The notes below the pieces were generated by a model, which saw only the letters and a program-made list of their open reading frames with translations, had not been told where the DNA came from and made no database searches. Positions 37,394-43,737 of a stretch of 64,000 nt of DNA are shown one piece after another. Within the stretch, counting starts at the first letter, position 1; each line of letters begins with the position of its first letter. The translations under genes and the position numbers were made by a program. The stretch comes from Thermodesulfobacterium sp. TA1 (GTDB lineage Bacteria; Desulfobacterota; Thermodesulfobacteria; Thermodesulfobacteriales; Thermodesulfobacteriaceae), in the NCBI RefSeq assembly GCF_008630935.1, contig NZ_CP043908.1, positions 248,001 to 312,000 of the forward strand. The letters are read 5' to 3'.

Positions 37394-38041
37394 ATGAATA
37401 TAGTGTTTTTAGGACCACCGGGAGCAGGTAAGGGAACTCAAGCTAAAATTTTGGTAGAAAAGTACGGTATCCCTCAGATTTCTACGGGAGATATGTTGAG
37501 AGAACATGTAGCAAAGGGAACAGAGTTAGGCTTGAAAGCTAAGGAATATATGGAAAAAGGACAGCTTGTGCCTGACGAAGTTATTCTTGGGATGGTTAAA
37601 GAACGTCTTAGCCAACCTGATGCTCAAAAGGGTTTTATTTTAGATGGTTTTCCAAGAACGGTAGCTCAGGCAGAGGCTTTAGATAAGATGTTAGAAGAAA
37701 TGGGTAGAAAGCTTGAGGTAGCATTAGCTTTGATAGTACCTGATGAAGAATTAGTATTAAGACTTACTGGAAGGAGAACTTGTAAAAATTGTGGTATGAT
37801 GTATCATATAAAATTTAAACCTCCTAAGGTAGAGGGTAAATGCGATGCTTGCGGGGGAGAGCTTTATCAAAGGGCCGATGATAATGAGGACACAGTAAGG
37901 AATAGGTTGAAAGTTTACCATGAATCTACTGCTCCTCTTATCGAATATTATAAGAAAAAGGGCATTTTGGCTGAGATTGATGGAAGTAAGAGTATAGAAG
38001 AAATAACTCAGCAAATTATTAATATTTTAGAAAAGAAGTAA
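37394..38041 (+). CDS. adk: Adenylate kinase with zinc-binding lid
   Basis: A 215-residue kinase catalysing AMP + ATP to 2 ADP. The P-loop is [13 protein letters not shown] and the AMP-binding motif [22 protein letters not shown] follows. The lid contains CKNCGMMYH and [11 protein letters not shown], four cysteines that bind structural zinc as in Gram-positive and many thermophile enzymes. Strong GGGGTGGGG ribosome binding site. Confidence 0.97.
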
Positions 38042-39989: not shown

Positions 39990-40622
39990 GTGGCTAGATA
40001 TACTGGAGCAAGATGTAGGCTTTGTAGAAGAGAAGGAATGAAGCTTTTTTTGAAAGGTGATAGGTGTTATACAGATAAATGTGCCTTTGAAAGAAGAAGT
40101 TATCCTCCTGGACAGCATGGTCCTCAGCAAGTAAGAGTAAAACTTTCAGACTATGGTGTTCGTTTGAGAGAAAAGCAGAAGGTAAAGAGGATTTATGGAA
40201 TTTCAGAAAAACAGATGAGGATGTATTATGAAAAGGCAACCAATATGCCTGGACAGGCAGGTCATAACCTTCTTCAATTTTTAGAAAGAAGGTTGGACAA
40301 TGTAGTTTATCGTTTAGGTTTTGCGGTTTCAAGAAACCAGGCAAGGCAATATATTAATCATGGATTTTTTAAGGTTAACGGAAAAAATGTAGATATTCCC
40401 TCTTATTTGGTGAAACCTGGGGATGTGATAGAGCTTAAAGAAAAATACAGAAATAATCCTCAGATTATAGAAAGTTTAGAAACTGTTATCAGAAGGGGTG
40501 TTCCTTCTTGGCTTGAGCTAGATACAGAGGGTTTTAAAGGAGTGGTTAAAGGATTGCCTACAAGAGACGAAATTACTATGCCGATACAAGAAAGCTATAT
40601 CATCGAGTTTTACGCCAGGTAA
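39990..40622 (+). CDS. rpsD: 30S ribosomal protein S4 (zinc form)
   Basis: About 210 residues. [15 protein letters not shown] with downstream DRCYTDKC gives a four-cysteine N-terminal zinc site; SYPPGQHG and the S4 RNA-binding domain [20 protein letters not shown] follow. An in-frame TTG at 39981 lies directly against AGGAGG and cannot be used; the GTG at 39990 has proper spacing and gives the usual M-ARYTG start. S4 nucleates 30S assembly and often autoregulates the alpha operon. Confidence 0.96.
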
Positions 40623-40676
40623 ACCTCAAGTTTATAAGGTGTTAAGAATATAAAAATAAAAGAGGGTAAAACACCG

Positions 40677-41642
40677 ATGAAGAAGGAAATAGAGCTTATT
40701 AAGCCTGAAGAAATTAGAGTACATAAGGATAGTCAGTTTCCTTATTATGGAAAGTTTATCATCGAGCCCTTAGAAAGGGGATATGGCATTACCTTGGGTA
40801 ATGCGTTAAGAAGAGTTCTTCTTTCTTCTATACCTGGTTATTCTATCACTGAGGTTAAGCTAGAGGGTGCTCCCCATGAGTTTACTAGTTTACCTGGAGT
40901 AGTTGAGGATGTGACAGAAATCATTCTTAATCTAAAAACAGTAAGGTTTAAGCTAAAAGAAGATGGTCCTTTCTATTTTAGGATAGAAAAGGTTGGAGAG
41001 GGAGAGGTTAAGGCTGGAGATATTCAGGTTGGAGATAAAGGGGAAATAGTAAATCCTGAGGCTCATATAGCTACTTTAACCAAAGATGGAAAGTTGTTTA
41101 TGGAAATCAAGGTGGAAAAAGGTAGAGGTTATGCGCCTGCTGAGTATAATAAAAATAATGAAATAGGTGTTATTTTGGTTGATGGTCTTTTTTCTCCTAT
41201 TACTAAAGTTAATTTTAATGTAACTCAGGCACGTGTTGGTAAAAGTAGTGATTACGATAGTTTAGTGTTAGAGATATATACTGATGGCACGATAGACCCT
41301 AAAGAAGCTTTGATAAGGTCTGCTAAGATTTTAGTAGAGCAGTTTATGGTCTTTTTGGGTGAGGAAAAGATAGGTTTAGAGCCTGCTCCTGTAGAGGCTA
41401 TTACTACCCAAAATGTGCTTAATCTGCCTATAGAGGAACTTGACCTTTCTGGTAGGGCATATAATTGTCTTAAAGCAGCTAACATAAACTATGTAGGACA
41501 GTTGGTACAAAAAACAGAGTCTGAGCTTTTAAAACTTAGAAGTTTTGGTAAAAAATCTTTAGACGAAATAGTAGAAAAGCTTAATAGGTTTAACCTAAAA
41601 CTTGGGATGACAGATGTTAAATGGAAATCTCCAAAAGATTAG
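40677..41642 (+). CDS. rpoA: RNA polymerase alpha subunit
   Basis: 321 residues. The N-terminal dimerisation domain shows PLERGYGITLGNALRRVLLS and SSIPGYSITEVKLEG; the C-terminal domain (about 245-315) has the helix-hairpin-helix LRSFGKKSLDEIVEKL used to bind UP elements and activators. Position between rpsD and rplQ is standard. Confidence 0.98.
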   Translation: MKKEIELIKPEEIRVHKDSQFPYYGKFIIEPLERGYGITLGNALRRVLLSSIPGYSITEVKLEGAPHEFTSLPGVVEDVTEIILNLKTVRFKLKEDGPFYFRIEKVGEGEVKAGDIQVGDKGEIVNPEAHIATLTKDGKLFMEIKVEKGRGYAPAEYNKNNEIGVILVDGLFSPITKVNFNVTQARVGKSSDYDSLVLEIYTDGTIDPKEALIRSAKILVEQFMVFLGEEKIGLEPAPVEAITTQNVLNLPIEELDLSGRAYNCLKAANINYVGQLVQKTESELLKLRSFGKKSLDEIVEKLNRFNLKLGMTDVKWKSPKD

Positions 41643-41661
41643 AAAGTAAGGAGAGGAGAAG

Positions 41662-42189
41662 ATGAGACATAGGAAGGTTAGCAGAAGATTAGGAAGAGAC
41701 ACAGAACATCATTGGGCTATTGTGAGGAATCAGGTGAGAGATCTTTTTAAACACGGTAGGATTGTTACCACCATAGCTAAGGCTAAAGAGCTAAGAAGGG
41801 TTGCTGAGCGGATGATAACTTTAGCTAAAAGAGGAGATCTTGCCTCTAGAAGAAGGGCTTTAGGTTTGATTAACGATAAAGAGGTGGTAAGAAAACTTTT
41901 TAAAGACTTAAGAGAAAAATTTTTGGATAGATCAGGGGGTTATACAAGGATTATTAAGGTTGGTCCAAGAAGAGGTGATGCCTCTATGATGGTGGTGGTG
42001 GAGCTGGTAGAAGAAAAGATTTCTTCTAAGCCTGGGAAAAAGAAAAACGAAAGACTTAAAAAGATATCAGAGTTTATAGAGAGAAAAAAGAAACAATACG
42101 GAATACTCTCTGAAGAAGGAAAGCCAGCGGTTGAGGAAAACACTCAAGAAGAAAAATCTATTGAGGAAGCACAAGAAGTTCAGGCTTAA
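41662..42189 (+). CDS. rplQ: 50S ribosomal protein L17 with C-terminal extension
   Basis: 175 residues against about 120-130 in most bacteria. The core is complete: MRHRKVSRRLGRDTEHHWAI and GGYTRIIKVGPRRGDASMM. The extra 50 residues (from about 125) are charged, KKNERLKKISEFIERKKK then a glutamate-rich tail ending EEAQEVQA, probably helical or disordered. It is the last gene of the locus and ends just before the terminator at 42207. Confidence 0.96.
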   Translation: MRHRKVSRRLGRDTEHHWAIVRNQVRDLFKHGRIVTTIAKAKELRRVAERMITLAKRGDLASRRRALGLINDKEVVRKLFKDLREKFLDRSGGYTRIIKVGPRRGDASMMVVVELVEEKISSKPGKKKNERLKKISEFIERKKKQYGILSEEGKPAVEENTQEEKSIEEAQEVQA

Positions 42190-42206
42190 CCATAAATTTC
42201 TCTTTT

Positions 42207-42228
42207 CCCCCTTCGGGGGGTCTTTTTT
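42207..42228 (+). terminator. Intrinsic terminator of the ribosomal operon
   Basis: CCCCC (42207-42211), a UUCG tetraloop (42212-42215) and GGGGG (42216-42220), then TCTTTTTT. A compact C(UUCG)G hairpin with a U tract ends the alpha operon 17 nt after rplQ. The next gene's ATG is at 42229, so the G-rich 3' arm is also the only Shine-Dalgarno-like sequence in front of it. Confidence 0.85.
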
Positions 42229-43683
42229 ATGAATGTTTTAATTTTAGGTCAACAAAGAATTGCAGATTTTTTAAACTTTCTTGCTTTTCCAGCAGAAGAT
42301 AAGGAGCATCTTATTTCATTTTTGAGAAAATTTCAGTATAGAGAAGATTTTTTTATAGTCGGAGGAGCAGTAAGAGATTTTTTTTTGGGTAAAAAGATCT
42401 TTGACCTGGATTTAGCTGTTGGGGAGGAGGTAGAGGACTTAGTCTTTTTTGCTAAGGATTTTCTCGGTTATCATTTAGTTCCTCTTGCCCCTGATTTGGG
42501 CATCTACAGATTGGCTAAGGGAGAAAATAGTTTAGATTTTACCGAATTTAGAGGTAAGACCATAGAAGAGGACCTTAAGGCTAGGGATTTTACTTTTAAC
42601 GCTATGGCTATTCCAGTAGGATCTCTTTTTTCTGATAATTTAAAGGTAGTAGACCCTTTTTATGGTTATCAACACCTGTTAGAAGGAAAAATTCAGCTTA
42701 TAGATGAAATAAACGTAATAGAAGACCCACTCAGGGTACTTAGAGGTTATAGATTTTTTGCTCAAGGATTAGGAGAGATAGAGAAAGAGACTAAAAGGAT
42801 CTTTCAAGTTCATAAGAACTTAGTCCTTTCTTGTGCTAAAGAAAGGGTGTTGCAAGAACTTATATATATTCTTCTTTCAGATAAAACCTATGATACCTTT
42901 AGACTGATGGATGAAGATGGTATTTTAGTAGAGCTTTTCCCATTTTTTGAGAAGACTAAAGGAATAAAACAACCGGGATTTCATCATTTAGATGTTTGGG
43001 GACATCTTTTGGAAAGTCTTAGGTGGGCTGAAGAAATCATTAAAGATCCTAAAAGATATATAGGATTAGAAAAAACTCAAGATTTTACTAAGGAAGATTT
43101 TATTATTTCTGTCAAGCTGGCCAGTCTTTTCCATGACTTAGGTAAGGCTTTTACTTTGGGAATGAACGAAGAAAGAATAACTTTTTATGGACATGAAAAG
43201 GTTTCAGCCGAAATCTTCAAAGAAAGTTTTGAAAAATATCGATTAAAAAGAGACCTTATTAACAAGACCTATGTTTTGATAAAAAATCACATGAGGCCCT
43301 TTCATTTGCTAAACGAAAAAGAAGTAGGTAGGCTTACGCTTAGGGCTAAAAGACATCTTTTAGCTGATGTGCCTTATTGGCTTGAGCTTTTTGTGGTGGC
43401 TATGGCTGATTCTCTGGCAAGTCAAGGTCCTGATAAAGAGCCAGATTATGAAGAAAGGTTAAAAGCCTTCTTTTTTGAGTTAAGGGAACTTAAAAATGAT
43501 ATGGAAAATATATCTCAAAAGAAAAGGTTTATTACAGGTAAGGACTTGATAGCTTTAGGTTTAAAACCAGGACCGATGTTTAAAGAAATTCTACAAGAGG
43601 CAGAGCTACTGTTTTTAGAAAAAAAAGTACAGACCAAAGAGGAAGCCTTAGCCTTGGTTAAGGCAAAGTATTTAAGCTTGTAA
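42229..43683 (+). CDS. CCA tRNA nucleotidyltransferase / poly(A) polymerase family protein
   Basis: A 484-residue class II nucleotidyltransferase. The head domain carries FFIVGGAVRDFFLGKKIFDLDLAV with the catalytic DxD, then ARDFTFNAMAI and the ERxxxE-type LRGYRFFAQG. A C-terminal HD domain (SLFHDLGKAFT; DxVHxP-like FHHLDVWGH) is present. It should add or repair CCA ends, or only part of CCA, or add poly(A); sequence alone does not separate these. The tRNA-Asn gene in this window lacks an encoded CCA, so a CCA-adding activity is needed. Its start abuts the upstream terminator. Confidence 0.88.
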   Translation: MNVLILGQQRIADFLNFLAFPAEDKEHLISFLRKFQYREDFFIVGGAVRDFFLGKKIFDLDLAVGEEVEDLVFFAKDFLGYHLVPLAPDLGIYRLAKGENSLDFTEFRGKTIEEDLKARDFTFNAMAIPVGSLFSDNLKVVDPFYGYQHLLEGKIQLIDEINVIEDPLRVLRGYRFFAQGLGEIEKETKRIFQVHKNLVLSCAKERVLQELIYILLSDKTYDTFRLMDEDGILVELFPFFEKTKGIKQPGFHHLDVWGHLLESLRWAEEIIKDPKRYIGLEKTQDFTKEDFIISVKLASLFHDLGKAFTLGMNEERITFYGHEKVSAEIFKESFEKYRLKRDLINKTYVLIKNHMRPFHLLNEKEVGRLTLRAKRHLLADVPYWLELFVVAMADSLASQGPDKEPDYEERLKAFFFELRELKNDMENISQKKRFITGKDLIALGLKPGPMFKEILQEAELLFLEKKVQTKEEALALVKAKYLSL

Positions 43684-43737
43684 AAATGAAAAATTAAGTT
43701 AAGGTAAAAATAAAACTCTTTATAAAGGGGTAGAAAG

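Follow-up and report, generated by a model that had tools for sequence, protein, structure and literature searches.

The ribosomal operon in the stretch of Thermodesulfobacterium sp. TA1 DNA analysed here (64,000 nucleotides; the window) ends in a hairpin and U-tract that run directly into the start codon of a nucleotidyltransferase gene. We consider it probable, at roughly 60%, that this hairpin is a partial terminator within an operon, setting ribosomal-protein output against a low dose of the enzyme, with the nucleotidyltransferase gene fed by read-through RNA. The most fitting reading of the hairpin and U-tract is a compact instance of an already known intra-operon terminator arrangement, and the junction illustrates how closely an operon terminator can be packed against the start codon that follows it. 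The window genome is a single contig of 1.83 Mb. Its host is probably heat-loving, and growth near 65 to 75°C was assumed from the family placement.

Anatomy of the rplQ junction

The ribosomal operon has the order adk, map, infA, rpsM, rpsK, rpsD, rpoA, rplQ; the first seven genes were named from their translations and the last by Pfam (Ribosomal_L17, E 1.4e-37). All features of the junction lie on the plus strand. The final gene, rplQ (ribosomal protein L17; 41662 to 42189), ends in a TAA stop codon at 42187 to 42189 and is followed by a pyrimidine-rich spacer of 17 nt (42190 to 42206). Next comes a hairpin, C5-UUCG-G5 (42207 to 42220), made of a C arm at 42207 to 42211, a UUCG loop at 42212 to 42215, and a G arm at 42216 to 42220. 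The U-tract UCUUUUUU (42221 to 42228), where a terminated transcript would be expected to end, follows without a break, and the ATG of the nucleotidyltransferase gene (42229 to 43683; 484 amino acids [aa]), which is close to rplQ and in the same direction, directly abuts it. The combination of a G/C-rich hairpin with an immediate U-tract is that of an intrinsic terminator. The original prediction had described the operon as ending in CCCCC-UUCG-GGGGG-UCUUUUUU with the ATG at the next base, and had called the G arm the only purine-rich sequence before that ATG. The sequence confirms the layout, and inspection by eye of the 39-nt gap from the rplQ stop to the ATG confirms the G-run as its sole purine-rich stretch. 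Together with the last base of the loop, the G arm forms GGGGGG (42215 to 42220), the sole Shine-Dalgarno (SD)-like sequence 5' of the ATG, at a spacing of 8 nt. The placement of the downstream gene in the CCA/poly(A)-polymerase family also stands, with matches to Pfam PolyA_pol, PolyA_pol_RNAbd, HD, and tRNA_NucTran2_2 in the 484-aa frame.

Under a strict definition (five consecutive G/C pairs, a loop of 3 to 5, and at least six T in eight within 0 to 1 nt of the stem, on both strands), the window holds one hairpin with a U-tract, the rplQ junction. Fifty dinucleotide shuffles of the window gave a mean of 0.12 strict sites, with at least one site in 5 of the 50, and no site was present in another 400 kb of this genome, sampled as 20 stretches; the chance expectation of about 0.12 per 64 kb counts against the partial-terminator reading. 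Two other measures, taken alone, prove little: the fold z-score of 42190 to 42240 is -1.26, and 19 of 200 shuffles fold just as stably, and a loose terminator scan of the window found 11 sites against 7.6 (standard deviation, 2.9) in shuffles. The junction terminator is instead taken as real because of its position directly after the ribosomal operon and its recurrence in three relatives (G001, G007, and G013).

The pattern CCCCTTCGGGGN{0,5}TYTTT has a single copy in the window genome, and on this basis we rejected a repeated mobile hairpin. The pattern is present in 4 of 14 genus genomes; in G009 it lies in a different place, not at the rplQ junction, and it misses G013 because the tail there is UCUUCUU. 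Leaving aside those within long open reading frames (ORFs) of the same strand, 464 kb (the window plus the 400-kb sample) contain 16 terminator-like sites. A long ORF starts 4 to 16 nt after the stem in two of these, the rplQ junction and one site in L055, and the L055 overlap has its own GGGGGA before the ATG.

Recurrence among relatives

Thirteen junctions were read within the genus (the window genome being G000), along with 16 rplQ ends outside it; among the latter, the nucleotidyltransferase gene comes next in G014 and G027. G012 gave no match to either rplQ or the nucleotidyltransferase gene. The exact overlap of hairpin, U-tract, and ATG, which the original prediction proposed seeking in related genomes, was found in G001, G007, and G013 in addition to the window genome, making 4 of 15 junctions. 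These three relatives have 77 to 78% protein identity to the window genome. Their stop-to-stem spacers are 17, 17, and 16 nt, their C-runs 6, 6, and 6, and their G-runs 9, 6, and 6, respectively, and the tails before the ATG read UCUUUUU, UCUUUUU, and UCUUCUU, the last being a weak U-tract that speaks against the partial-terminator reading. Across the four species, 38 to 42 nt separate rplQ from the nucleotidyltransferase gene. These species form a single clade with full support (100/100) in a tree of 20 proteins. Terminator labels on that tree need 3 changes, with three labels assigned by eye, 6 rows unlabelled, and 4 forks open.

The layout is common to the four species even though four-fold sites of rplQ, the nucleotidyltransferase gene, and tig are only 47 to 60% identical between the window genome and the other three, which supports a partial terminator. 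Conservation of the gap itself does not single out the terminator: the gap is identical to that of the window genome at 35/43, 35/40, and 33/40 positions in a hand alignment (67 to 85% in a MAFFT alignment), and the gap before tig, used as a control, is no less conserved, with 49/55 identical positions in each comparison.

Elsewhere the junction takes several forms. The gap is only 8 to 21 nt in G004, G005, G009, G010, and G011, a closeness that fits a single operon and favors the partial-terminator reading. Seven of the 13 genus members have no G/C-rich terminator at the junction by eye (G003 has an A/U-rich hairpin), so a terminator is not required for the nucleotidyltransferase gene. At this junction G002 and G008 carry other terminator-like hairpins, separate from the start, and G014 and G027, outside the genus, each carry one as well; these, too, support the partial-terminator reading. 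G014, from a second genus, has its terminator 15 nt before an assumed TTG start (SD energy, -4.7), with an out-of-frame ATG 7 nt after the stem. In G027, from a third genus, the terminator is a different one, its stem ending 10 nt short of the ATG; this junction (L161) reads GGCCCGGAGA...TCTCCGGGCC then UUUUGCUUGU, right before the nucleotidyltransferase ATG, and its SD energy is weak (-2.5).

Start codon and route of translation initiation

The ATG at 42229 is the only ATG, GTG, or TTG common to all four clade species within codons 1 to 60, and upstream none occurs in any of them before the preceding in-frame stop is reached. This excludes a common alternative start with any of these three codons; rare upstream ATT, ATC, or ATA starts fall outside the exclusion. 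A downstream start codon had been named as a finding that would refute the original prediction, and codons 2 to 60 hold no shared candidate: the only ATG, GTG, or TTG codons there in the four species are the TTGs at codons 32 and 53 of the window genome. We rejected codon 32, which lies behind AAGGAG (42301 to 42306), and codon 53, as each is TTA in the three relatives. We also rejected a rare ATT start at codon 29, which is ATT in G013 and CTT in G001 and G007 and therefore not common to all. The case for the ATG at 42229 is made by the shared codon and the open frame and not by counts at synonymous sites, which are weak evidence that the first codons are translated: the window genome and G001 differ by 5 synonymous and 13 non-synonymous codon changes in codons 2 to 35, compared with 135 and 95 in codons 36 to 484.

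The start reads ATGAATG in the window genome (42229 to 42235), G001, and G007, and ATGAACG in G013. ATGAATG is also present in G005, G009, and G011; the overlap clade uses the first ATG, whereas these three use the second, in another frame. From the aligned sequences, the start codon seems to have been shifted by a small indel between the two groups.

Ribosomes may reach this ATG without an SD, either by loading through ribosomal protein S1 on the A/U-rich region around it or by reinitiating after termination at rplQ, in which case the hairpin would be a terminator only and the G-run would have no part in translation. We give this route somewhat less than even odds; it is compatible with the intra-operon terminator explanation and fits alongside it. 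In its favor, nine of the 13 genus members whose junction could be read, all those outside the overlap clade, lack an SD ahead of the nucleotidyltransferase gene, with energies of +2.4 to -2.7 at starts that we picked ourselves (the start of G008 being an assumed TTG); two of the nine, G002 and G008, sit behind a separate terminator. The sequence directly before the ATG is A/U-rich with or without the hairpin, as in TTTTTATGAATG, which is found in G000, G001, G007, and G005. The window genome also has a 578-aa ORF with five S1-domain matches, and stop-start gaps are short in five relatives. However, a gap of 38 to 42 nt with a stable hairpin should hinder both scanning and loading, and about half of the clean starts in the window genome carry an SD: among 142 such starts, a core SD motif is present in 53%, with a median energy of -6.8 versus -3.3 in shuffles. 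Likewise, ribosome binding site use is reported to be exclusive in Thermotoga maritima, also a thermophile, with leaderless transcripts not detected (PMC3636130).

The same T. maritima report and the genome-wide enrichment of SD motifs favor the opposite idea, in which the G arm is a working SD, the hairpin when folded shuts out ribosomes and bound ribosomes prevent folding, and the dual-purpose overlap was selected and ties the enzyme to read-through. We regard this full version as unlikely. In energetic terms it is possible: the G-run pairs with a typed standard anti-SD sequence at a modelled -10.6 kcal/mol at 37°C, compared with -11.6 for GGAGG, and the modelled pairing spans -10.6 to -11.4 kcal/mol across the four clade species. 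The spacing is suitable as well: in the window genome 8 nt lie between the run of six G's and the ATG, and in G001, G007, and G013 the distance is 7 nt. Other genes of the same stretch, at 37394 and 43738, have G-rich SDs. Against it, the nine SD-less genus members (one with an assumed start, G008) do without such a site, and the hairpin equally demands the G-run, so the hairpin alone explains its presence. At 70°C the modelled hairpin (-4.5 kcal/mol in the window genome and -5.5 to -7.6 in the relatives) is roughly as strong as the SD pairing (-4.7) or stronger, and its three to four central G's have an unpaired fraction of no more than 3% in every one of the four species. The original prediction was therefore right that the folded hairpin hides the G-run. 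Its view that the hairpin doubles as the ribosome binding site is supported as far as SD-like energy and spacing go; a need for the hairpin in that role is not supported, since 9 of the 13 genus members lack an SD at this gene. Judged from sequence and models, the G-run may be just a by-product of the hairpin; it may help translation start, but it does not look necessary for the nucleotidyltransferase gene.

Source of the nucleotidyltransferase message

A transcript ending in the U-tract lacks the start codon, as the original prediction had recognized, so the gene's message has to come from read-through or from a separate promoter. Read-through would be the simplest source of RNA, and regulation of the nucleotidyltransferase by read-through is plausible. 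Under the partial-terminator reading, for which the canonical hairpin and U-tract right after rplQ speak, most polymerases would stop in the U-tract at 42221 to 42228 and leave a ribosomal-protein mRNA without the next start codon. A minority would read through and produce the nucleotidyltransferase message, starting at the ATG at 42229. Ribosomal mRNA is presumably in excess of the need for a tRNA-end enzyme, and a partial terminator would keep the gene in the operon at a low dose. With 16 to 17 nt from the L17 stop to the stem, a ribosome finishing L17 would partly hinder the hairpin, and read-through would rise with close ribosome-polymerase coupling, which is assumed for this host. Initiation on read-through RNA would have to open the stable hairpin, keeping translation low too, and could proceed with the G-run as SD or through the A/U-rich start region as in the SD-less relatives. 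Partial termination, transcription-translation coupling, and low translation of the gene are what we infer for this junction.

Termination could also be near complete, with an unrecognised promoter serving the gene. We found no sigma70-like match on the plus strand from 40229 to 43259 at the scan threshold, in a scan limited to one consensus. That limit leaves some room for a promoter at the 3' end of rplQ that drives the gene independently behind a complete terminator, and CATAAA at 42191 to 42196 is, by eye, loosely like a -10 box. This hexamer is CATAGA or CATATA in the relatives, however, and the resulting RNA would still hold the terminator in its leader; by eye, a leaderless start at 42229 would need its -10 box inside GGGGUC. 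We find such a promoter improbable, slightly more so than the working SD.

The stop-to-stem distance bears on how read-through might be controlled. In E. coli tR2 constructs, termination efficiency is reported to be about 0.12 at a distance of 17 bp and about 0.8 at 18 bp, and to peak near 0.9 once the distance exceeds 30 bp (PMC4824070). By analogy, the 16 to 17 nt of the overlap clade falls in the range where E. coli ribosomes partly suppress termination, as does the 16 nt of G014; the spacing is not general, which counts against the partial-terminator reading, and the distances in G008 (22 nt), G002 (23 nt), and G027 (28 nt) are nearer the upper end. The junction resembles the tR2 constructs and the pyrBI attenuator, as cited in that report, in this spacing, but the constructs were engineered in E. 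coli and coupling in the window host is assumed (PMC4824070). Given coupling, the spacing suggests that read-through would depend on L17 translation, and a very short element would then link ribosome production to tRNA 3'-end maturation. A double gate, in which the ribosome finishing L17 17 nt upstream both suppresses the terminator and helps expose the G-run and ATG, making the tRNA 3'-end enzyme proportional to coupled L17 translation, is very unlikely. When the junction alone was folded at 37°C, CAUAAA after the stop paired with UUUAUG, which includes the start codon (six pairs in three of four species; absent from G013). We rejected this outer helix as a stable element because it is too weak in the folds: it is lost in G007 with more downstream sequence and gone in all four species at 60°C and above.

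Comparable arrangements are known. In the E. coli rpsU-dnaG-rpoD and rplL-rpoBC operons, a terminator or attenuator lies between ribosomal-protein genes and primase or polymerase genes, and read-through supplies the latter; unlike at the rplQ junction, the U-tract there is not known to run straight into the start of the following gene. In riboswitch expression platforms, a terminator or sequestering hairpin can take in the SD, so that one hairpin acts on transcription or on SD access. The rplQ junction differs in that no aptamer or alternative antiterminator was recognised, and Rfam gave no matches at gathering scores between 41600 and 43900, arguing against membership in a riboswitch or T-box family. 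A functional parallel may be drawn with the archaeon Methanococcus maripaludis, where internal terminators are reported to set ribosomal-protein versus RNA polymerase subunit levels and their mutation to slow growth (PMC10450193). As proposed for our junction, such a terminator (ioTTS) follows ribosomal-protein genes and lowers a downstream RNA-enzyme gene; termination there is archaeal and the effect was measured, whereas the junction here is read from sequence (PMC10450193). The main text of that report contains neither "start codon" nor "ribosome binding." In Bacillus subtilis, operons with RNA-binding proteins are reported to have predicted attenuators more often (14% versus about 5%), although these are leader attenuators, unlike the intra-operon junction here (PMC2965389). 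Among the titles and abstract openings surveyed, we noticed no terminator whose U-tract abuts the next ATG, which is not proof of its absence in print.

Downstream, the element TTGTAA-N16-TAAGGT (43678 to 43705, plus strand) lies over the nucleotidyltransferase stop codon, before tig. The form TTGTAA-N16 or N17-TAA[GT][GC]T is present in all 13 genus members examined, over the stop codon in five and starting 4 to 18 nt from it in seven; in G008 it lies 905 nt downstream, ahead of tig. A longer version of the pattern has one exact match in the window genome and five with one mismatch. We infer that this element may act as promoter or operator for the tig unit. Because tig has its own conserved element, perhaps only the nucleotidyltransferase gene depends on read-through; if the element serves in either role, that gene would be the only one affected by the terminator, with tig, clpP, clpX, and lon spared (the names clpP, clpX, and lon come from translations).

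The best solved relative of the window nucleotidyltransferase is 3wfo (E 1.2e-46), listed as a poly A polymerase, which we take to be the Aquifex CC-adding enzyme. In Aquifex aeolicus, CC and A addition is reported to be split between two enzymes (PMC3925840). The window genome has a second superfamily member (L164:331-1410, minus strand), whose closest chain is 3aqm, listed as a poly(A) polymerase. As the window gene is closest to 3wfo and the L164 gene to 3aqm, tRNA CCA addition may likewise be split between enzymes in this genome.
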